Source: Deltaproteobacteria bacterium
Lineage (GTDB): Bacteria > Myxococcota_A > UBA796 > SXON01
Direction: 5' to 3'
NCBI GenBank assembly: GCA_947445035.1
Contig: CANFCK010000009.1
Coordinates: 1 to 64,000, forward strand
Length of the DNA: 64,000 nucleotides
The position numbers were made by a program, and so were the translations under genes. Position 1 is the first letter of the stretch. Each line of letters begins with the position of its first letter. A model generated the notes under the pieces. The model was not told the DNA's origin. It saw only the letters and a list, made by a program, of their open reading frames with translations, and ran no database searches. This document shows positions 15,363 to 23,749 of this stretch, piece by piece.

Positions 15363-16295
15363 ATGGACCCCGTCTACCACCGCCTGCCCGTCGTCGATGC
15401 GGGTGGGATGGAGCTCCACCTCCCCCTCGTGGACCTCGGTCCAGGCCCGCCACGGCTGTGCATCGTAGCCGGCATTCATGGGGACGAGCCGTCGCCCCTG
15501 TTGTTGGTGGACCGGATGGTGCTGGCCCTGCGAGAGCGAGAACTATCAGCCTGCATCCGCATCATAGCGGCAGCGAACATTCCTGCATTACTTCAGCGCA
15601 CCCGGTGGAGCAGCTGGGACGACGAAGACATGAACCGCATCGGGGACGGCGATGGCGGCCCCGCCCTCACCCGCCGGCTGGCAGCGGCGGTGATTGCCGC
15701 GTGCTCCGGGTGCGACGTCGTCGTGAACCTCCACAACTTCGTGATGCGCACTCCGCTTCTGGCGGTGTGGCCGCCGGGCCAGAGCGCGGACCATGCAGCG
15801 CGCCATGAGCTGCTCCTCGCTGCGCTTGACCCTCATGTCGTCTGGGTTTTCGGGGACACGCCCGAAGACCAGCGGCTCTTTTCTGGTAGCTTGGATGCCG
15901 CGATCGAGCGTCGGGGCTCGCACGTCCTGGCGGTGGAGATGTCCGATCTTCCGGAGATGGACGAACCACTTTTAGCCCGCTCGGCGTCCGGGCTTCTGCG
16001 AATCGCCGCGCAAGTCGGGTGTCTGGTCGACACCGAGCGGGCGCCTCGCCGCAACCGGGTTTACGTGCATCGGCGGCTGGTTCGTGCGCCGGGAGCGGGC
16101 ATATTCGAGCCTATCGCCGCCCTCGGTGGGCAGGTGGTCGCTACCGACATCGTGGGCGAGCTCATTCCCTTGGAGCGCCCCGGACATCGGGTGCCCATCC
16201 TGGCTGGCGACTCCGGCTGGTTGATTCAGCGGCTGGGCCGGCGTTTCGTGCGGCCGGGCGACATGATTTTCACCGTCGGGCATCCCGCCCGGTAG
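15363..16295 (+). CDS. Succinylglutamate desuccinylase/aspartoacylase-family hydrolase
   Basis: 310-aa M14-like zinc hydrolase of the AstE/AspA group. The zinc motif is intact: H39 and E42 in AGIHGDEPSP, and H124 in VVVNLHNF. NIPALLQRTRW, EDMNRIGD and the C-terminal beta-barrel segment (FEPIAALGGQVVATDIVGEL) match the family. Members remove acyl or amide groups from small amino-acid derivatives. Two diverged paralogs lie at 18.6 and 19.5 kb, both with altered zinc ligands, so this copy may supply the catalytic activity. An AT-richer stretch near 15540-15600 stands out. Substrate unknown. Confidence 0.85.
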   Translation: MDPVYHRLPVVDAGGMELHLPLVDLGPGPPRLCIVAGIHGDEPSPLLLVDRMVLALRERELSACIRIIAAANIPALLQRTRWSSWDDEDMNRIGDGDGGPALTRRLAAAVIAACSGCDVVVNLHNFVMRTPLLAVWPPGQSADHAARHELLLAALDPHVVWVFGDTPEDQRLFSGSLDAAIERRGSHVLAVEMSDLPEMDEPLLARSASGLLRIAAQVGCLVDTERAPRRNRVYVHRRLVRAPGAGIFEPIAALGGQVVATDIVGELIPLERPGHRVPILAGDSGWLIQRLGRRFVRPGDMIFTVGHPAR

Positions 16296-16310
16296 CCGAG
16301 CGCCCGTTCT

Positions 16311-16484
16311 TCAGATGTTGAAGTCGACGTCGACCACGCCACGCTCGACTCGATCCTCCGTGACCCCGACCGCGTCGGGCCGAGGGGGCATCGGCGCGGG
16401 GACCTCGATGCGCAGCGGCACACGAGCCTGAGTGGGCGCCTCGCGCTCGCGTTGGATTCGGTTGATGATGAACGCGTCAAGCAT
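16311..16484 (-). CDS. 57-residue protein downstream of the DUF2520-like gene
   Basis: A short minus-strand gene: MLDAFIINRIQREREA at the start, a Pro-rich middle (VPAPMPPRPD) and an acidic end (GVVDVDFNI). It starts 8 bp after the stop of the Rossmann-protein gene on the same strand, so it is probably its operon partner. A helix-forming N terminus, Pro-rich middle and hydrophobic/acidic C-terminal strand suggest a small adaptor. I believe similar short proteins occur in related genomes, but this is from memory and unverified. It reads cleanly with GC-rich third positions. Confidence 0.65.
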   Translation of the reverse strand: MLDAFIINRIQREREAPTQARVPLRIEVPAPMPPRPDAVGVTEDRVERGVVDVDFNI

Positions 16485-16492
16485 CTGGTGCC

Positions 16493-17269
16493 TCAGCTCG
16501 CATCGTCAGGCCCGGTCGGGTCACTTCCAATGGGAGTATAGCCACCACTCTTGACACCGGCAGTGTCGAGTGCGGTGTCGGCGCACAGAAAACTGATTCG
16601 TGCCGTCCCGGCGTCGTACGTGGGCAGCAGCGCCTGCGGGAGCGCCGCCCGGTGGGCAAGGATGGTGGCCGTGTCGCCGCGCGCCGCCGGTCCGGTCAAG
16701 GCGGCAGGCCCGGTCGCCAAGACCCGCACGAGGGTTGCCGTCGCGAGCGGGGCCAGCGTTTTTCGTGCGAGCTCGGGAGAGACCCCGGTTGCACTTGAAA
16801 AAAGTCGTGCTGCATCCTCGACGATCGCGCCGAGGTGTCCCGATACCAGGCACGCCGCGGCGTGGTAGCTGGCGCGGTCGCTGACCGGGCCGACCGACGT
16901 CCATCCGAGGCTCGTCGCCAACTCCTCCGCCAGGGCCACAGCGACCGGGTCCCCGTCGATGGTGCAGGGCACCCAGGCGCCCGTCGGGTGGGGAAAGGTC
17001 ATCAGCGGATGAAGGACCGCGCCGGGACGATCGCCGAGCACGTCGGGAGCGAGGCTGCCGGCGCTGTGGAGGGCGATCGCCCCGGCTGGGAGCTTCGCCG
17101 CCGTGGCTGCGACCGCATCGTCGGGCACGGTCAGCCAGTAGGCATCGGCGTTTGGGAGGGGATCGTCGTGATGCGTGAGCGTCGCGGTTCTCCCCGCCGC
17201 CCCCAGCGCCGCGGCCACCGCAGTGCCGAGCCGGCCGGCGCCGACGATGACGAGGCGGGGGGGCTCCAT
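16493..17269 (-). CDS. Rossmann-fold DUF2520-like protein
   Basis: 258-aa protein with an N-terminal NAD(P)-binding motif (LVIVGAGRLGTAVAAAL, residues 6-22), LTVPDDAV at the end of the Rossmann part and the family hallmark LHPLMTFP. A helical C-terminal domain follows (YHAAACLVSGHLGAIVEDA). It resembles ProC/ApbA-like reductases; DUF2520 members are largely uncharacterised. The ATG is preceded at 6 nt by TAGCCT on its strand and is divergent from the biotin-carboxylase-like gene with only 32 bp between start codons. It probably belongs to the same functional neighbourhood as the AstE-like genes. Confidence 0.82.
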   Translation of the reverse strand: MEPPRLVIVGAGRLGTAVAAALGAAGRTATLTHHDDPLPNADAYWLTVPDDAVAATAAKLPAGAIALHSAGSLAPDVLGDRPGAVLHPLMTFPHPTGAWVPCTIDGDPVAVALAEELATSLGWTSVGPVSDRASYHAAACLVSGHLGAIVEDAARLFSSATGVSPELARKTLAPLATATLVRVLATGPAALTGPAARGDTATILAHRAALPQALLPTYDAGTARISFLCADTALDTAGVKSGGYTPIGSDPTGPDDAS

Positions 17270-17275
17270 GGGGCG

Positions 17276-17281
17276 AGGCTA
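17276..17281 (-). promoter_or_regulatory. -10-like TAGCCT, N6 before ATG 17269
   Basis: The minus-strand hexamer TAGCCT followed by 6 nt and ATG fits a leaderless start. It sits back to back with the plus-strand box at 17290-17295, so the two genes share a very compact divergent promoter. Confidence 0.5.
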
Positions 17282-17289
17282 TCTCGCGT

Positions 17290-17295
17290 TAGGCT
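17290..17295 (+). promoter_or_regulatory. -10-like TAGGCT, N6 before ATG 17302
   Basis: TAGGCT, then 6 nt, then the ATG of the biotin-carboxylase-like gene. There is no Shine-Dalgarno sequence. It is the partner of the opposing box at 17276-17281. Confidence 0.5.
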
Positions 17296-17301
17296 CTACC
17301 G

Positions 17302-18591
17302 ATGAGTGATGTGCGGCCGATTCAGCGGGTCCTGGTCGCCGACCGTGGTGAGGTGGGCGTGCGCCTCTTGCGCGTTCTGGAGGCCAACGGGTTGGAAGGC
17401 GTCGCGGTCTTCTCTGACGCCGACGCCGACGCCCCTTGGCTCGATCATGTGGCATTCGCGGTGCGGATTCCGCCGTCGGGCACGCGGGACCCGTACATGG
17501 ACCCCGCAGGGATCGTGAGCGCCGCCTTGGACAGCGGGGCGGATGCGGTCCACCCCGGGCTGCACGGGCTGGCGCGGAGCGCCGAGTTTGCTCGCACCTT
17601 GCACAACGTCGGCCTCACCTGGCTGGGTCCACGGATCGACGATCTCACCTGGACCGTGGACCGGGTCTTGGCTCGCGCCCGCGCCCGAGAAGCGGGCCTC
17701 GAACTCCTACCGTCGAGCCCACTTCTGTTCGATCCTGACGCGGTGGAAGCGTGGTGCGAACGCTTCGGCTTCCCGCTGGTCATGCGTCCGGGGCGCCGGT
17801 TGGCGATGCGGAGCCGGGTCGTCCACGACCGCTCGTCGGCGCGTCGTGCGGTGGCCGAGGCGGGTCAGGTCGGGGTCTTCGCCGAACGGGCGCTGCCCGA
17901 AGCCCGCCACGTGGCGGTCGCGGTCGTTGGGGACGGGTACGGAAACGCGGTACACGTCGGGGAGCATGAGCTCTCGTTGCTCGGTCCGGCGGGGGTCCGC
18001 CTCCGCGAGTGTCCGTCGGCAGGCGTGGACGCTGGGTTGCGGGCACGTATCGGGCAAGGGTCGGCGGATTTTCTGGCCGCGTCGCGGTATTTCGGGGTCG
18101 GGGCCGTCCACTACCTCATCGGTAGCGACGGTCTGGCCTGGTTCCTGGACGTGGAGCCCGGCCTGCCCGAGGGTTTTGCGTTGCACGACAGGGTTTACGG
18201 GGTGGACCTGATCGGCGCGCAAGTGGCGCTCGCTTCGGGCGAAGAGCTGGGTTGGGATCAGGATGACATCGCTCCCGACGGCTGCGCGGCCGAGGTCGCG
18301 ATTGCCCTGACGCGTCGCGGATGCGCAACGCGGCTTGAATTCTCCGATCCTGGGTGCGTGGAGACCGCCGTCAGCGTGGGTCAGCGGGTGGACCCGGCGC
18401 GCTACCCCGTTCTCGCCCGTGTCCGCGTGTCGGCGCCTACCCGGAACGCGGCGTTGGTGCGCCTGCGGGCGAACTTGGAGAGCGCAGTGGTGGAGGGGCT
18501 GGAGTGCGATCTCGCCGCCTGCGTCGACCTGCTGGCAGACCTTGCGGTCTGGGAAGGACGCACGTCACGCCGCATCGCCGACCGGCGGTAG
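17302..18591 (+). CDS. Degenerate biotin-carboxylase-like ATP-grasp protein
   Basis: 429-aa protein that aligns by eye to biotin carboxylase along its length: VLVADRGEVGVRLLRVLEAN (usual IANRGEIA), VFSDADADA, GADAVHPGLHGLARSAEFA, FAERALPEARHVAVAVVGDGYGNAVHVGE and YGVDLIGAQVALASGEEL. Key catalytic elements are missing. The Gly-rich ATP loop (usually GGGGKGM) is replaced by MRPGRRLAMR. The ELNPRLQVEH metal/bicarbonate segment is replaced by DVEPGLPEGFALHD. The C-terminal barrel is present. It is therefore probably a pseudoenzyme or has a changed reaction. It starts an operon with two AstE-like genes (12-bp gap). No biotin carboxyl carrier or transferase gene is nearby. Confidence 0.8.
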   Translation: MSDVRPIQRVLVADRGEVGVRLLRVLEANGLEGVAVFSDADADAPWLDHVAFAVRIPPSGTRDPYMDPAGIVSAALDSGADAVHPGLHGLARSAEFARTLHNVGLTWLGPRIDDLTWTVDRVLARARAREAGLELLPSSPLLFDPDAVEAWCERFGFPLVMRPGRRLAMRSRVVHDRSSARRAVAEAGQVGVFAERALPEARHVAVAVVGDGYGNAVHVGEHELSLLGPAGVRLRECPSAGVDAGLRARIGQGSADFLAASRYFGVGAVHYLIGSDGLAWFLDVEPGLPEGFALHDRVYGVDLIGAQVALASGEELGWDQDDIAPDGCAAEVAIALTRRGCATRLEFSDPGCVETAVSVGQRVDPARYPVLARVRVSAPTRNAALVRLRANLESAVVEGLECDLAACVDLLADLAVWEGRTSRRIADRR

Positions 18592-18597
18592 TAAGAT
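18592..18597 (+). promoter_or_regulatory. -10-like TAAGAT, N6 before GTG 18604
   Basis: TAAGAT spans the end of the preceding gene and lies 6 nt before the GTG. It could give an internal leaderless transcript for the second and third genes of the operon. Confidence 0.4.
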
Positions 18598-18603
18598 CAT
18601 CTC

Positions 18604-19527
18604 GTGCCGCATCTGCTGGAAGTCCTCATCGAGATTGAGTTGCCGACGGGCGACCTGGTCGCGGTCCACCGTCGGCGGTTCTCGGGCGGCGTCGGCCCGC
18701 ATGTGGTGCTGGTTGCAGGAATCCGCGGGGACACGCCGGAGGGGACGCGGGTGCTCCACGCGGTCGGTCGCCACCTGGAGTCGGTGGCCGATCGCTTGAC
18801 CGGGACGATCGACCTGTACCCCTGCCTCAACCCGCTCGCGGCCCACCAGGGGGCGCGAAATTGGCCAGGGCTCGACGTCGACCTGAACCGTCGGTTCCCG
18901 GGTCGCGCCGATGGCCACGCCCCCGATCGGGTGGCCGCGCGGTTCATGGCCGATGTCGCCGGCGTCGACCAGGTCATCGAGCTCCGTGGAGCGCACCCGG
19001 CGTTTCGGCTGGCGCCGCACGCTCGGGTCGGCAAGGACCAGCTCCTGGCGGTGGAGCGGGCCACAACCGCGAACGTACGCGCGCTGTGGACCTCCGCCGC
19101 TCCGGCGGGCGCGGGCTCGTTGGAGGAGGCGATCCCCAGCCTCATCGGGCTCTTGGGTGGCGTCGGCAATCGGCTCACCGATGGTGTTGGGCTCGAGCTG
19201 GCGGACGGCTTGCTCAACCTCATGGCGGTGATGGGCGTGATTCCGGAGGAGGACCTCCCGTTTCATTGGGCCGCGGTGCAGCGACCGGTGGTGGTGGGGG
19301 ACGAGCAGGTCGCTGATATCCGGTCGATGCGAGGCGGCCTTTTCATCCCCGCGGTGGCGGTGTGGGCCGAAGTCGATGCCGGCGATGTCGTCGGCGAGGT
19401 GATCGAGCCCATCAGCGGCGAGGTGCGCGAGGCGCTCGTTGCCCCAGCCGCAGGGCGCGTCCTGGCCTTGCGCGAAGAGCCCGTGATCTATCCGGGAAAC
19501 CTCGTCTGTCGGCTGGTGCTCGGATGA
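18604..19527 (+). CDS. AstE/AspA-family paralog lacking zinc ligands
   Basis: 307-aa member of the AstE/AspA fold: HVVLVAGIRGDTPEGTRVL, CLNPLAAHQGARNW, DVDLNRRFPG and a C-terminal barrel (VDAGDVVGEVIEP, APAAGRVLALREEPVIYPG). All three zinc ligand positions are substituted: the usual His and Glu of HGDE are R41 and T44, and the third His is R128 (VIELRGAHP). The rest of the scaffold is well kept, so this looks like selected loss of catalysis rather than decay. It lies 12 bp after the biotin-carboxylase-like gene and overlaps the next paralog by ATGA. It may act as a binding or regulatory partner. Confidence 0.8.
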   Translation: MPHLLEVLIEIELPTGDLVAVHRRRFSGGVGPHVVLVAGIRGDTPEGTRVLHAVGRHLESVADRLTGTIDLYPCLNPLAAHQGARNWPGLDVDLNRRFPGRADGHAPDRVAARFMADVAGVDQVIELRGAHPAFRLAPHARVGKDQLLAVERATTANVRALWTSAAPAGAGSLEEAIPSLIGLLGGVGNRLTDGVGLELADGLLNLMAVMGVIPEEDLPFHWAAVQRPVVVGDEQVADIRSMRGGLFIPAVAVWAEVDAGDVVGEVIEPISGEVREALVAPAAGRVLALREEPVIYPGNLVCRLVLG

Positions 19528-20411
19528 CGGACACCCCGTTTTTTGAGCTTGAGTCCCCGTACCGCGGGTGGTACCGGCTGCACCGGCTGAGCTTCGGAAG
19601 CGGCGACCCGGTCACCACGCTGGTGGCTGGGATCCATGGCAACGAGGTCAACGGCACCTACGCGCTGAATCTGCTGGCCGGCATGCTCCGGCTGCAAACC
19701 CCGAACGGGACCGTTCATCTGCTGCCTTGTGTCAACCTGTTCGGTGCCGAGGAGAGTCGTAAGCGGTGGCCGTTTGACGATCGCGACCTGAACGAGGTTT
19801 TTCCAGGTGATGCCCAAGGTTCACCGGTGGAGCGTGTCGCCGAGGCGGTGATGAGAGCGTCGGTCGGACAGTTGTGTATCGAGCTGCAGACCGGCTCGGC
19901 GCTGGTGCACGAAGTCCCGCATGTTCGTTCTCCGATGGACCTGGCGTTGGGAGAGGCTGCGGGCCTGCCGCTTTTGTGGCGTCGTCCGGCGGAACAGCTC
20001 GACGAGGGGCTGCTCGGCGCGTGGCGAGCCGCGGGTCGCACCGCGTTGGTGGTGCGCGGGGGGCGGGGCGGTTCGCTGGACGTGGGCGATGCCCGGACGA
20101 TGGCCCGGGGTTTGGTGAGGCTGCTCGCGCACGCAGGTCACCTCCGAGACCCCGAGCCGGCACCGCCGACCATCGTGAGCACGACTATGCTCGACTACCG
20201 CTGCGAGGTAGGCGGGTTCTTCGTTCCGGAGGTGCGTCCAGGGGAGACCGTCGTCGTGGGCCAGCTGCTCGGGACGCTACGGTCCCCGATCGGCGGTGAG
20301 GGGGTCGAGAGCGTTACCGCCACGGCGGCAGGGGTGGTCCTGGCCGTCCGTGTGTACCCGGTGGTGCATGGGCGAGAGCTCGTCGTGCGGGTGGCGCAGT
20401 CAACGACCTGA
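19524..20411 (+). CDS. AstE/AspA-family paralog with one altered zinc ligand
   Basis: 295-aa AstE/AspA-type protein: H38 and E41 in VAGIHGNEVNG are kept, FDDRDLNEVFPGDAQGS is typical, but the third ligand (usually DLHTGS) is CIELQTGS, so His is Gln122. PHVRSP and the C-terminal barrel (VRPGETVVVGQLLGTL, ATAAGVVLAVRVYPVVHG) follow. Gln can bind zinc only weakly, so activity is uncertain. It overlaps the preceding gene (ATGA) and ends the operon; the next gene starts 57 bp later with its own ribosome binding site. A heteromer with the 18.6-kb paralog is possible. Confidence 0.8.
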   Translation: MTDTPFFELESPYRGWYRLHRLSFGSGDPVTTLVAGIHGNEVNGTYALNLLAGMLRLQTPNGTVHLLPCVNLFGAEESRKRWPFDDRDLNEVFPGDAQGSPVERVAEAVMRASVGQLCIELQTGSALVHEVPHVRSPMDLALGEAAGLPLLWRRPAEQLDEGLLGAWRAAGRTALVVRGGRGGSLDVGDARTMARGLVRLLAHAGHLRDPEPAPPTIVSTTMLDYRCEVGGFFVPEVRPGETVVVGQLLGTLRSPIGGEGVESVTATAAGVVLAVRVYPVVHGRELVVRVAQSTT

Positions 20412-20468: not shown

Positions 20469-22610
20469 ATGATGGCGGGGATCTTGTGGTGGGTTTGGTC
20501 GGCCTGGGCGCTCGAAGCCACGGTCGAGGTGGGTGAGATCACGGTCGCTACCGACGCCGCCGATACGGTGGTTCAGGCCGAGGCCGCGCTCAAAGGCGGG
20601 CGCTTCGTCGAGGCGGCCGGGTTGTACAAGGCGCTCGCCGAGGCGGGCGGGGGCGCGCAGGCTCGTTTGGCAGAGGCCGTCGCCTGCTACGAACTTGGAG
20701 ACCTGAACGCGGCGAAGCGGGCGATCGACGCGGCGGTTCGCCTGGCGCCCAAAGACGCAGCCGTGCTCAATGTTCAGGGCCTGCTCCTGGTGGATGGGGG
20801 CCAGGTGCTCGCGGGGATCGAAGCCCTGAAGGCATCGAAGGCGGCGGCCAAGAAGGCCGGGCGCAAGGGCAGCGAGGCTCGAGCTGCGGTGAACCTCGCG
20901 CTCGCATACGTGGACCTCGGCGATGCGGCTGCGGCGACGGCGGAGGGGAAGGTCGCGGCGGGCCTGGCCGACGGGGAGGGGGACGCGGCGCTGGCGGCGG
21001 CCGCGCGTGCGGTTGACGGGCTGGTCGCGGCGCTGGCTGGCACCGATTCTGGAGTGGGCACGCTCTTGGGAAAGGGCCAAACCAGCGCCGCCCGAGGCGC
21101 CGCAGAGGCCGCCGTGAGCGCGGCGCGGACGCCAAGGCAGGAGATCACGGCGGCGCTGGAGTTGGCCGCTGTCGAGCGCGCGGAGGGGCGCCTGGAGGAA
21201 GCGGTCTCCCGCCTCGCCGGGGCGGCGAAACGTGCCCGCGAGCAGGGGCTGGTGCGGGAGCACGCGATCGGGCTCATCGACCTCGGCCTGGTCCAGTCGC
21301 TCGGCGGCCGCCTTGCGGTGGCCGAAGACACGTTGCGCGCCGCGGCACGCGCCGCGAATGAAGCCGGCTACCGGGTGGTCGAGGTGGACGCCCGCTGTGA
21401 GCTGGGGCTGGTCCTCGTCGCGGCGGACGACCTCGCCGGGGCAAAGGCGGAGCAGGGCGCCGCGGGGCTGCTCCTCGGCGGCATGCAGTACGCCCAGGGC
21501 GTCGCGCGGCAGGCGGAGCTCGGCGGCGTGCTGGCGGGGCGCAGCGGAGATCTGGTGACGGCCAAGAGCGCGCTCGGCAAGGCCGCCAGCTACTATGCAG
21601 GGCGCGGGCGCAATCTGGACGCGGCGCGCGCTGCGACCGCGCTGGCAGGCGCCTGGCAGCAGGGCGAGCCCGCCGGTGCCGGCGCTCCCGCCGCAACTGC
21701 GGAGGGGTACTTCCGCGCCGCCGGAGACAGGCTCGGGCCCGCGCACGTGCTCCTGGCGCGGGCCCTGGGCGACGCCCGCGCGAAGCGGCTGCCGGAGGCC
21801 CTCGGCGGCTTTGCCAAGGCGGCGGCGGCCGCTGAAGCGGTCGGCGGGGGTCGGGCGACGGCTCTCGCCAAGGTCGCCCGGCAGAATGCGGCGGCGGCCT
21901 TGGTGATGCTCGGCCATGACGCCGACCTGGCCAAGTTGGCCTCCGATGCGGGCCTGGGCGATCTCGTCAAGCGTGAGCAGCAGCTCAGCGGCGCCGCCGC
22001 GCGCTACGACGCGGGATTGACCGCGTATGGGGCGGGCCGCTTTGACGAAGCGAAGGCCGCCTTCGGGGAGGCCCGCACCACCTTCGAGTCCCTCGGCGAG
22101 GCCGAGTACGCCCTGCGCGCCCGCCGCTCAGCCGCGTGGTCTGGCTACAACGCCCTGGTCACCGTCCCCGCGGCGAAGGCGCTGCCGAGCTGGCAGGCCC
22201 TCGTCGTCGAGACCGGCGCCGTCGATGACCCCGAGCTGTATGCGCGGGCGTACGGCGCCGCGGTGATGGCATCGGTGACCCAGAAGGTGCCCGACCTCGG
22301 GGCGCGGCTGACGGAATGCACCCGCGTGGCCGAGAAGGCCGGCCTCGGCGACGTCGGCGCGCGCTGCCACGGTGCCCAGGCTGAGACCGCCGGCGCCGAT
22401 CTGCGCGAACGGGCCTCCCACGCACGTGAGGCCTACCGCCTCGATCCGCGCGGCACGGCCGGCGTGTACGCGCTCTACGTCGTCGCGGTCGACGCCTACA
22501 ATGCCGATGAGGAGGCGCTAGCGACGGAGCTGGCGGCGCTGGCGCGCCCCAACGCGGGCACGCTGGGGCCGGCCTTGGACGAGATGCTCCGGCTGATGCG
22601 GGGGGAGTGA
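20469..22610 (+). CDS. Exported TPR-repeat protein
   Basis: 713-aa protein with a short signal peptide (MMAGILWWVWSAWA) and many degenerate tetratricopeptide repeats rich in Ala/Leu/Glu. Examples are EAALKGGRFVEAAGLYKALA, AVACYELGDLNAAKRAIDAA, NLALAYVDLGDAAAA and YDAGLTAYGAGRFDEAKAAF. TPRs form superhelical scaffolds for protein binding; here they would lie in the periplasm or at the outer membrane. No enzymatic domain is seen. GGAG stands 7 nt before the ATG. A small 3' gap leads to the DUF2325 gene. Function beyond scaffolding is unknown. Confidence 0.8.
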   Translation: MMAGILWWVWSAWALEATVEVGEITVATDAADTVVQAEAALKGGRFVEAAGLYKALAEAGGGAQARLAEAVACYELGDLNAAKRAIDAAVRLAPKDAAVLNVQGLLLVDGGQVLAGIEALKASKAAAKKAGRKGSEARAAVNLALAYVDLGDAAAATAEGKVAAGLADGEGDAALAAAARAVDGLVAALAGTDSGVGTLLGKGQTSAARGAAEAAVSAARTPRQEITAALELAAVERAEGRLEEAVSRLAGAAKRAREQGLVREHAIGLIDLGLVQSLGGRLAVAEDTLRAAARAANEAGYRVVEVDARCELGLVLVAADDLAGAKAEQGAAGLLLGGMQYAQGVARQAELGGVLAGRSGDLVTAKSALGKAASYYAGRGRNLDAARAATALAGAWQQGEPAGAGAPAATAEGYFRAAGDRLGPAHVLLARALGDARAKRLPEALGGFAKAAAAAEAVGGGRATALAKVARQNAAAALVMLGHDADLAKLASDAGLGDLVKREQQLSGAAARYDAGLTAYGAGRFDEAKAAFGEARTTFESLGEAEYALRARRSAAWSGYNALVTVPAAKALPSWQALVVETGAVDDPELYARAYGAAVMASVTQKVPDLGARLTECTRVAEKAGLGDVGARCHGAQAETAGADLRERASHAREAYRLDPRGTAGVYALYVVAVDAYNADEEALATELAALARPNAGTLGPALDEMLRLMRGE

Positions 22611-22627
22611 ACGGGGTAGAACCCGCC

Positions 22628-23749
22628 ATGCCGACCAAACAGTCAGACCTCGACGCGCTCGCCGACGCCTTCGCCGGGGTTCGACCCCTGGGACAGCCCA
22701 GCGCAGGCGTGCCCCGCGGGGGCGTGCCCGGCGGAGGCGGGTCCCCACCGCGGGGGGCCCCCACGGCTGCGCAAAGCGCCCGAGCGTCCCACGCGGCCCC
22801 GTCTCCATCGCCGTCGCGACCCGGATCGCCCCCCCCGCCGGCACCGACGCCGAGCGAAGACGACGCGGCCGCCTTGCGCGAGGCCCTGCGCGGCGTGCGC
22901 CGACTCGACCCTCCGCCAGCGGGCCCCACCCGCCCGCTGGTCGCTCCCGTCCCTTCGTCGCTGACCCCGCCTTCCAGCGAGCTCCTGCGCCATCTGGAGC
23001 GGGAAAACGAGGTGCTCACGGCGCGGGTCACGGGGCTCCTGCTTGAGCGCGAGGCCGCCCGAATCAGCGCGCTGGGAGCGGTGGCGGAGGCGACGGCGGC
23101 CACCGCCCGCGTCGAAGAAATTTCCTCCCGACTTCGGGAGCTCGAAGCCGAGGGTCGCACCCTCCGCGACCGCGCCAGCGAGCGCTCCACCGGCGAATTC
23201 CGCACCCTCCTCGTCGAGCGCGGGCTGCGCAGCGAGGCCGAGATGGCCGCGGCGCTCACCGCACTGCTCGACGGCGGTCGGTTCTTGCCCCTCCTCTGCG
23301 GAATGGTCGTGGCACGGCGCGCCGAGCTGCTGGCGTTCTTGGAGGAGCGGCTGATCTTGCTCGCGGAGGGCGAGGAGGCGCCGGCCGGCCGCGCGGTCGT
23401 GCGGGTGCCGAGCGAGCGCAGTGAGGCGCGCGAGGACAGCGCCCTGCGCGCGGCCCTCGCGCAGTTTTCCAGCGCGTGCCTGGTCGGGGGAAAGCGCCGC
23501 GTGGTCTTCGTCGGCGGCTCGCCGGCCTACCGGAAGCAGCTCCGGGAGGGCCTCGATCGCCGCCTCGACCTACGCTTCGTCGAGGGCAACCAGGTCCGCA
23601 TCCCGAAGATCGACGCCGATCTGGTCATCGTCTGGGGGGCCACCGAGCTCGATCACAGCGTCAGCAACCACTTCCCAGGCGCGATGCTCGTCCCCCACCG
23701 AGGGATCGTGGGCATGCTTCAGATGGCGTCGCAGCGGCTGGGCGCCTAA
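22628..23749 (+). CDS. DUF2325-like protein with Smr-linker-like repeats
   Basis: 373-aa protein with three parts. Residues 1-95 are Pro/Ala-rich and contain two related elements, LADAFAGVRPLGQPS and LREALRGVRRLDPPP, that recall the linker preceding Smr domains. Residues 115-170 are a coiled coil (LRHLERENEVLTARVTGLLLERE). The C terminus (from about 285) resembles DUF2325: RRVVFVGGSPAYRKQL, then a DADLVIVWGATELDHSVSN region. No Smr nuclease domain is present. TAGAAC-N5-ATG precedes the start. GTG 22607 is a possible longer start. It is convergent with the phosphatase gene, overlapping by 4 bp. Confidence 0.7.
   Translation: MPTKQSDLDALADAFAGVRPLGQPSAGVPRGGVPGGGGSPPRGAPTAAQSARASHAAPSPSPSRPGSPPPPAPTPSEDDAAALREALRGVRRLDPPPAGPTRPLVAPVPSSLTPPSSELLRHLERENEVLTARVTGLLLEREAARISALGAVAEATAATARVEEISSRLRELEAEGRTLRDRASERSTGEFRTLLVERGLRSEAEMAAALTALLDGGRFLPLLCGMVVARRAELLAFLEERLILLAEGEEAPAGRAVVRVPSERSEAREDSALRAALAQFSSACLVGGKRRVVFVGGSPAYRKQLREGLDRRLDLRFVEGNQVRIPKIDADLVIVWGATELDHSVSNHFPGAMLVPHRGIVGMLQMASQRLGA

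Follow-up and report, generated by a model that had tools for sequence, protein, structure and literature searches.

Three adjacent genes at positions 17302–20411 of the window (the whole stretch analysed here, the first 64,000 nucleotides of contig CANFCK010000009.1 from the 5.27 Mb genome of a Deltaproteobacteria bacterium) encode a biotin-carboxylase-like protein (BCL) followed by two AstE/AspA-like paralogs (AstA and AstB). We tentatively propose that they constitute an operon for a non-catalytic ligand-binding or regulatory assembly, with the complex and its function inferred from sequence comparison. Together with an upstream AstE/AspA-family gene (AstE1) and a DUF2520 gene with a small partner (p57), they lie in a 5-kb cluster that gene distributions indicate is a composite of older units, namely DUF2520-p57-BCL, AstA-AstB and AstE1. 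The original prediction, made from the DNA letters of the window, had described an operon of a degenerate BCL and two AstE-like paralogs with changed ligands, and open reading frames, Pfam matches and residue tables agree with that description. It had also treated the cluster as five genes of a single co-occurring system, a view we gave up because AstE1, DUF2520-p57-BCL and the AstA-AstB pair (AstAB) are distributed differently.

The window belongs to family f1, one of the families f1–f6 of a single order, and 71 genomes of the class and 377 of the phylum were drawn for comparison. BCL and AstAB were found together only in f1, where BCL lies 5' of AstA on the same strand at all 18 other loci holding both, in six genera; the gap between them is ≤72 nt at 15 of these loci and 835–876 nt at the other three. 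This recurrence supports BCL-AstA-AstB as a conserved operon. In the window, BCL and AstA are separated by 12 nt, and AstA and AstB overlap by 4 nt (ATGA). The AstA-AstB tandem occurs in five families of the order, with a gap of −8 to +10 nt at 33 of the 34 loci holding both genes; in L041, the one outlier, the start picked automatically reached upstream, and four loci with no second gene (L043, L076, L077 and L078) were excluded.

An AstA profile matched 37 of the 71 class genomes at a cut-off of 1e-20 (f1, 21/22; f2, 2/2; f4, 8/10; f5, 3/4; f6, 3/4), with no match at this cut-off among the 21 f3 genomes or the eight class genomes from outside the order. Within f1, this search found only AstB in G021 and nothing in G017. 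At the phylum cut-off of 1e-25, with six candidates scored per genome, 49 of 377 genomes matched, and the 12 outside the order had single hits (best 4.9e-33). A scan of genome contigs yielded only three loci. CAMBIK010000172.1 (L039), a metagenome record under the title Klebsiella pneumoniae, carries the genes from AstE1 to AstA, with an AstA 67% identical, and its species label looks wrong.

Ratios of nonsynonymous to synonymous substitution rates (dN/dS) against the nearest relative (G007; dS 0.6–1.0) were 0.04 for AstE1, 0.05 for BCL, 0.08 for AstA and 0.10 for AstB, and 0.16 and 0.23 for p57 and the DUF2520 gene. Against three more distant members of the genus, where dS often exceeded 1, the ratios were 0.11–0.15 for BCL and 0.16–0.21 for AstB. 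BCL, AstA and AstB are under purifying selection, and pseudogene status is unlikely because the ratios are low against the nearest relative. A chance cluster is likewise not what these data describe, since AstA-AstB and BCL-AstA adjacency recur in relatives and dN/dS is low.

The loss of catalytic residues in BCL was scored at nine positions (K116, K159, K238, E276, E288, N290, R292, E296 and R338), with alignment columns defined by an intact homolog from the window's genome and in what we take to be the E. coli numbering of the biotin carboxylase residues. The window BCL retains none of the nine and no biotinyl domain was found in it; all nine are present in each of the genome's four other carboxylase homologs, one of which set the columns. 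The 22 BCLs from outside f1 retain 0–3 and the 17 from f1 retain 0–1. K116 is replaced by Arg in all 22 non-f1 BCLs and in all 13 f1 BCLs having that position; K159 is retained in 19 of 22 non-f1 BCLs versus 0 of 13 in f1, and R338 in 20 of 22 versus 0 of 17. Among 20 control homologs fetched (four being the window genome's own, already in the residue table), 18 had all nine residues, and the exceptions, two f4 copies in G045 and G033 with 0 and 1, were counted as BCLs, bringing the BCLs examined to 41. The carboxylases of two outgroup genomes, G066 and G069, had been candidate BCLs, as their BCL-profile scores exceeded those of the remaining intact homologs, but were rejected with nine of nine residues.

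Four f1 BCLs (L071, L072, L074 and L053; 333–342 residues) lack residues ~142–198 of the ATP-grasp lid, including K159 and the glycine loop, and keep the N-terminal domain. The window BCL is itself predicted to adopt a complete biotin carboxylase fold (AlphaFold2 (AF2) predicted local distance difference test (pLDDT) 91.5; Foldseek template-modelling score (TM) of 0.90 to 3rv4). With the ATP-site residues absent, and the lid lost in these four members, the sensor of ATP-grasp type that the original prediction had envisaged is doubtful. In a tree of 51 rows, a single branch (support of 100 in the Shimodaira–Hasegawa-like approximate likelihood ratio test, SH-aLRT) splits 33 BCLs from 18 intact homologs; it is a quick, unrooted tree with long inner branches, limited to carboxylases of this class, from which 12 rows had been dropped beforehand (four homologs present twice after refetching, four f1 BCLs that were short and four rows closely related to retained ones). 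These sequence comparisons fit a distinct pseudo-biotin-carboxylase family, and the tree is consistent with one origin.

Outside f1, the surroundings of BCL are those of p57 and DUF2520. p57 was found in 62 of the 71 class genomes (1e-3) and 160 of the 377 phylum genomes (E ≤ 1e-4). Of 43 genomes with p57 outside f1, 42 were inspected (L099 and L100, from G036 and G055, plus the 40 loci L148–L187; G069 was omitted). At all 40 of these loci, no more than 421 nt separate DUF2520 and p57, indicating an uncharacterised conserved pair whose p57 member is spread over the phylum. The predicted divergent DUF2520-like Rossmann gene with a 57-aa partner is borne out by both open reading frames and the DUF2520 Pfam match; in the window DUF2520 and p57 are 8 nt apart, and 32 nt separate the start codons of the divergent DUF2520 and BCL genes. 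BCL is present at 21 of the 40 loci, one copy being cut by a contig end; rbfA and truB follow 3' of it in 18 of the 21 and an enoyl-CoA hydratase gene precedes it in 15 (names from a Pfam check on L099). Of the 19 loci without BCL, three (L179, L180 and L182) end at a contig edge, and the others include both from f2, all six fetched from other orders, two from f6 and several from f3. No AstA, AstB or AstE1 was found at any of the 40 loci.

This setting bears on one alternative, in which BCL would serve a true acetyl- or acyl-CoA carboxylase as its dominant-negative or assembly subunit, like plant BADC but on the carboxylase side, with AstAB separate. A precedent, an acetyl-CoA carboxylase that includes a non-catalytic paralog, is given in a passage of PMC11926652; BCL has the full biotin carboxylase fold, the genome holds four intact carboxylase homologs, and the hydratase gene adjoins BCL at those 15 fetched loci. 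The lid deletion in four f1 BCLs speaks against such a subunit, which would also leave the f1 linkage to AstAB unexplained, and we consider it highly improbable.

AstA and AstB are members of one family, as the original prediction had held: the AstE_AspA_cat domain matches both in the window and is found in 35/35 AstA and 32/32 AstB sequences. Both paralogs do have altered ligands, as was also predicted, with the refinement that they are altered differently. We scored residues, with the catalytic and ligand roles that we take from the AstE/AspA family, in one alignment of 35 AstA, 32 AstB and 11 AstE1 sequences together with the genome's other AstE-like protein. The window AstA has R, T and R at the three zinc positions and L in place of the catalytic Glu. 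Across AstA, the first zinc His is R in 30/35, H in 4/35 and G in 1/35, T or A replaces the zinc Glu in 35/35 and the second zinc His is R in 29/35, giving Arg at both His positions in 28/35 by a tally of alignment rows; none of the 35 has a complete HxxE...H zinc site. The substrate Arg is retained in 31/35 and the catalytic Glu in 27/35 (14/15 outside f1 versus 13/20 in f1). The window AstB has H, E and Q at the zinc positions and lacks both the Arg and the catalytic Glu. Among AstB sequences the first His is kept in 27/32, the zinc Glu in 32/32 and the second His in 20/32 (Q in 11/32), while the Arg is retained in 4/32 and the catalytic Glu in 3/32. The complete AstB zinc triad, present in 20/32, is found in 16/16 outside f1 versus 4/16 in f1. 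In a HMMER alignment, the AstA Glu aligns with the Glu of 2qj8 and 3cdx, and AstB shows an Arg-aligned column to 3cdx. The predicted AstA structure (AF2 pLDDT 93.1) has a DoeB-like deacylase fold (Foldseek 6twm, TM up to 0.83). By these residues, AstA and AstB decayed in largely complementary ways and the decay went further in f1.

A Pcp gene of the pyroglutamyl-peptidase family lies directly 3' of AstB in 13 of the 14 f4–f6 genomes holding the pair (for example L060:10001-10534 and L062:7529-8086); none was found in the remaining one, G033. In f1 and f2, Pcp is at another location or was not found (G018). A link between BCL and Pcp, as in 5-oxoproline loci, was considered and dropped, Pcp being beside AstB in f4–f6 and elsewhere in f1. 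Its place beside AstB in f4–f6 suggests that the ancestral pair may have worked with N-capped substrates, either amino acids or peptides.

The same observations raise the question of whether the AstA-AstB pair has remained enzymatic across most of the order, using the zinc of AstB and the Arg and Glu of AstA in a heterodimer, or another base, with loss only in the part of f1 where AstE1 took over. Residues are indeed retained in complementary fashion, with the zinc triad in every AstB outside f1, Pcp adjoins the pair in those 13 genomes, and AstE1 occurs only in f1, where 12/16 AstB rows lost the triad. In the AstE/AspA family, however, zinc, Arg and Glu sit within one subunit, which means that a site spanning two subunits would have to be rebuilt, and four f1 genomes (L047, L048, L051 and L053) keep the AstB triad despite AstE1. 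We regard a surviving enzyme as unlikely.

AstE1 itself is intact. As originally predicted for an AstE-like gene in the 5-kb region, it carries a zinc site (H39/E42/H124), along with R92 and E192, and all six scored residues are present in 11/11 aligned AstE1 sequences. It was found in 19 of the 22 f1 genomes and in none of the rest of the 377 phylum genomes (E ≤ 1e-20). By our tally, AstE1 and AstA share one fetched locus in 11 of the 19. In G011, G012, G018 and G020, AstE1 lies elsewhere, with ~6-kb flanks on both sides that lack BCL, AstA and AstB, and close to the gene for ribosomal protein L28, which also neighbours it in the window (Pfam L28 6.4e-24); in G004, G009, G010 and G013 the loci reach contig ends, and AstE1 may or may not be linked there. 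Confined to f1 at this threshold, and lacking the linkage in four genomes or more, AstE1 is by its genomic distribution not a dependable partner of the altered pair, and the idea of an active hydrolase working with inactive scaffold paralogs is weakened by its position away from BCL and AstAB in these genomes.

For the tentatively favoured non-catalytic assembly, we envisage that AstA and AstB would form an obligate heterodimer in which AstA may bind an anionic ligand through the arginines replacing two zinc histidines and the retained substrate Arg. In the ancestral pair the metal would have sat on AstB; together with the pyroglutamyl-peptidase-family enzyme whose gene adjoins it in f4–f6, AstB may have cleaved N-capped substrates, either amino acids or peptides. 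In f1 the pair would have become linked to BCL. BCL may in turn hold the C-terminal biotinyl-like domains of AstA and AstB, devoid of the biotin lysine, much as a carboxylase docks its carrier protein, and the resulting assembly would be a ligand sensor or regulator, not an enzyme. The AstB C-terminal domain (32 rows) compared with seven biotinyl domains of intact homologs gave a probability of 88% over 56 columns in hhalign, with no biotin Lys at the position of the AMKM-like motif; three control stretches gave 0.3, 0.3 and 0.7%, and the AstA and AstB C-termini aligned with each other at 99%. A Pfam RnfC barrel-sandwich domain was weakly matched in 5/35 AstA and 8/32 AstB. From these alignments, a carboxylase-carrier-like docking of the AstA and AstB C-termini on BCL is conceivable. 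A ghost carboxylase complex, in which docking geometry is kept and the chemistry is replaced by ligand sensing via an anion pocket of the zinc-replacing arginines, is a decidedly unlikely extension of this.

Several observations weigh against the proposed assembly. The AstA C-terminus alone (first 31 of 35 rows) reached 41% over 14 columns against the biotinyl domains, and AstE1 5%; AstE/AspA proteins in general are expected to carry a biotinyl-like domain, which gives no specific reason to meet a carboxylase. AstA dN/dS rises to 0.20–0.34 against distant genus members (0.34 against L052). Complementarity is not absolute, as three f4 AstB have Glu at the catalytic column and 8/35 AstA lack it. 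An opposite-strand alpha/beta-hydrolase gene splits BCL from AstA in three genomes of the window's own genus. BCL occurs without AstAB in f3, the p57 locus has no BCL in f2 and in two f6 genomes, AstAB being present in f2 and in one of those f6, and 12 f4–f6 genomes hold BCL and AstAB at separate loci. The distributions thus indicate that BCL and AstAB met in f1 and that neither needs the other elsewhere, because outside f1 each occurs alone or at a separate locus.

It is accordingly possible, and we hold this just as tentatively, that the genes are cotranscribed and functionally unrelated, an old pseudo-carboxylase and an AstE-like pair that became neighbours via a rearrangement in the f1 ancestor and are held together by inertia. 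BCL and AstAB each occur alone in other families, the AstE1, DUF2520/p57 and tetratricopeptide repeat (TPR) neighbours move independently, and, with f1 being a single family, one event may account for the joining. Yet every one of the six f1 genera preserves BCL-AstA order and strand amid the shuffling or loss of other neighbours, and BCL and AstAB have both lost further catalytic residues in f1.

The features of the window are collected in Table 1. Many f1 genomes, and three from f5, likewise have a TPR gene 3' of AstB, with no match in genus g2, and the TPR and 380-aa genes (20469–23749) are possible further members of the AstAB unit. The 380-aa protein gave the impression of a DUF2325-like C-terminus, but the Pfam search reported none. 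Rfam found no families at gathering score within the window.

Table 1 Genes of the cluster and its flank in the window, and the gene inserted between BCL and AstA in three relatives
Feature	Position	Strand	Remarks
AstE1	15363..16295	+	Zinc-intact AstE/AspA-family protein; Pfam AstE_AspA_cat 3.8e-14
p57	16311..16484	-	Small conserved protein downstream of DUF2520 gene, same strand; no Pfam family
DUF2520 protein, Rossmann-like	16493..17269	-	PF10728 2.6e-24
BCL, biotin-carboxylase-like	17302..18591	+	Biotin_carb_N 1.9e-23, CPSase_L_D2 5.8e-19; Biotin_carb_C below cut-off
AstA, AstE/AspA-like	18604..19527	+	GTG start; AstE_AspA_cat 1.2e-10
AstB, AstE/AspA-like	19524..20411	+	AstE_AspA_cat 3.7e-15
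TPR protein	20469..22610	+	Neighbour of operon, not counted as part
380-aa protein	22607..23749	+	No Pfam family; recurrent neighbour downstream of AstAB
Alpha/beta-hydrolase gene	L044:1645-2619, L045:3504-4478, L046:10601-11527	opposite	Between BCL and AstA

The above analyses describe a natural series of conversion from enzyme to non-enzyme, in which a pseudo-biotin-carboxylase family and a complementary AstE-like pair were joined and further decayed in f1, and this suggests that old enzymes were reused as binding or regulatory parts. Judging from the family matches, automatic annotation may label these proteins acetyl-CoA carboxylase and succinylglutamate desuccinylase. The series makes the role of such pseudoenzymes directly testable. 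Searches of an open-licence library turned up no published account of such a system.

Compared with biotin carboxylase (AccC, or the acyl-CoA carboxylase alpha subunit), BCL has the same fold as the E. coli structure 3rv4 and matches three Pfam domains, the C-terminal one below the cut-off, but the window protein has lost all nine catalytic residues and has no biotinyl domain, and four f1 relatives lack the lid. The AstA and AstB profiles match structures of the DoeB type, and AstA shares the fold of DoeB/EutE and other AstE/AspA deacylases, whereas their zinc ligands, Arg and Glu are split between, or lost from, two tandem paralogs. A gene of the family of pyroglutamyl peptidase I (peptidase C15) adjoins AstB in f4–f6 and not at the f1 locus or in the window cluster. 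Plant BADC proteins are described, in a portion of PMC11926652, as non-biotinylated paralogs of an acetyl-CoA carboxylase part with a role in assembly or inhibition; BADC resembles the biotin carrier, whereas BCL resembles the carboxylase.

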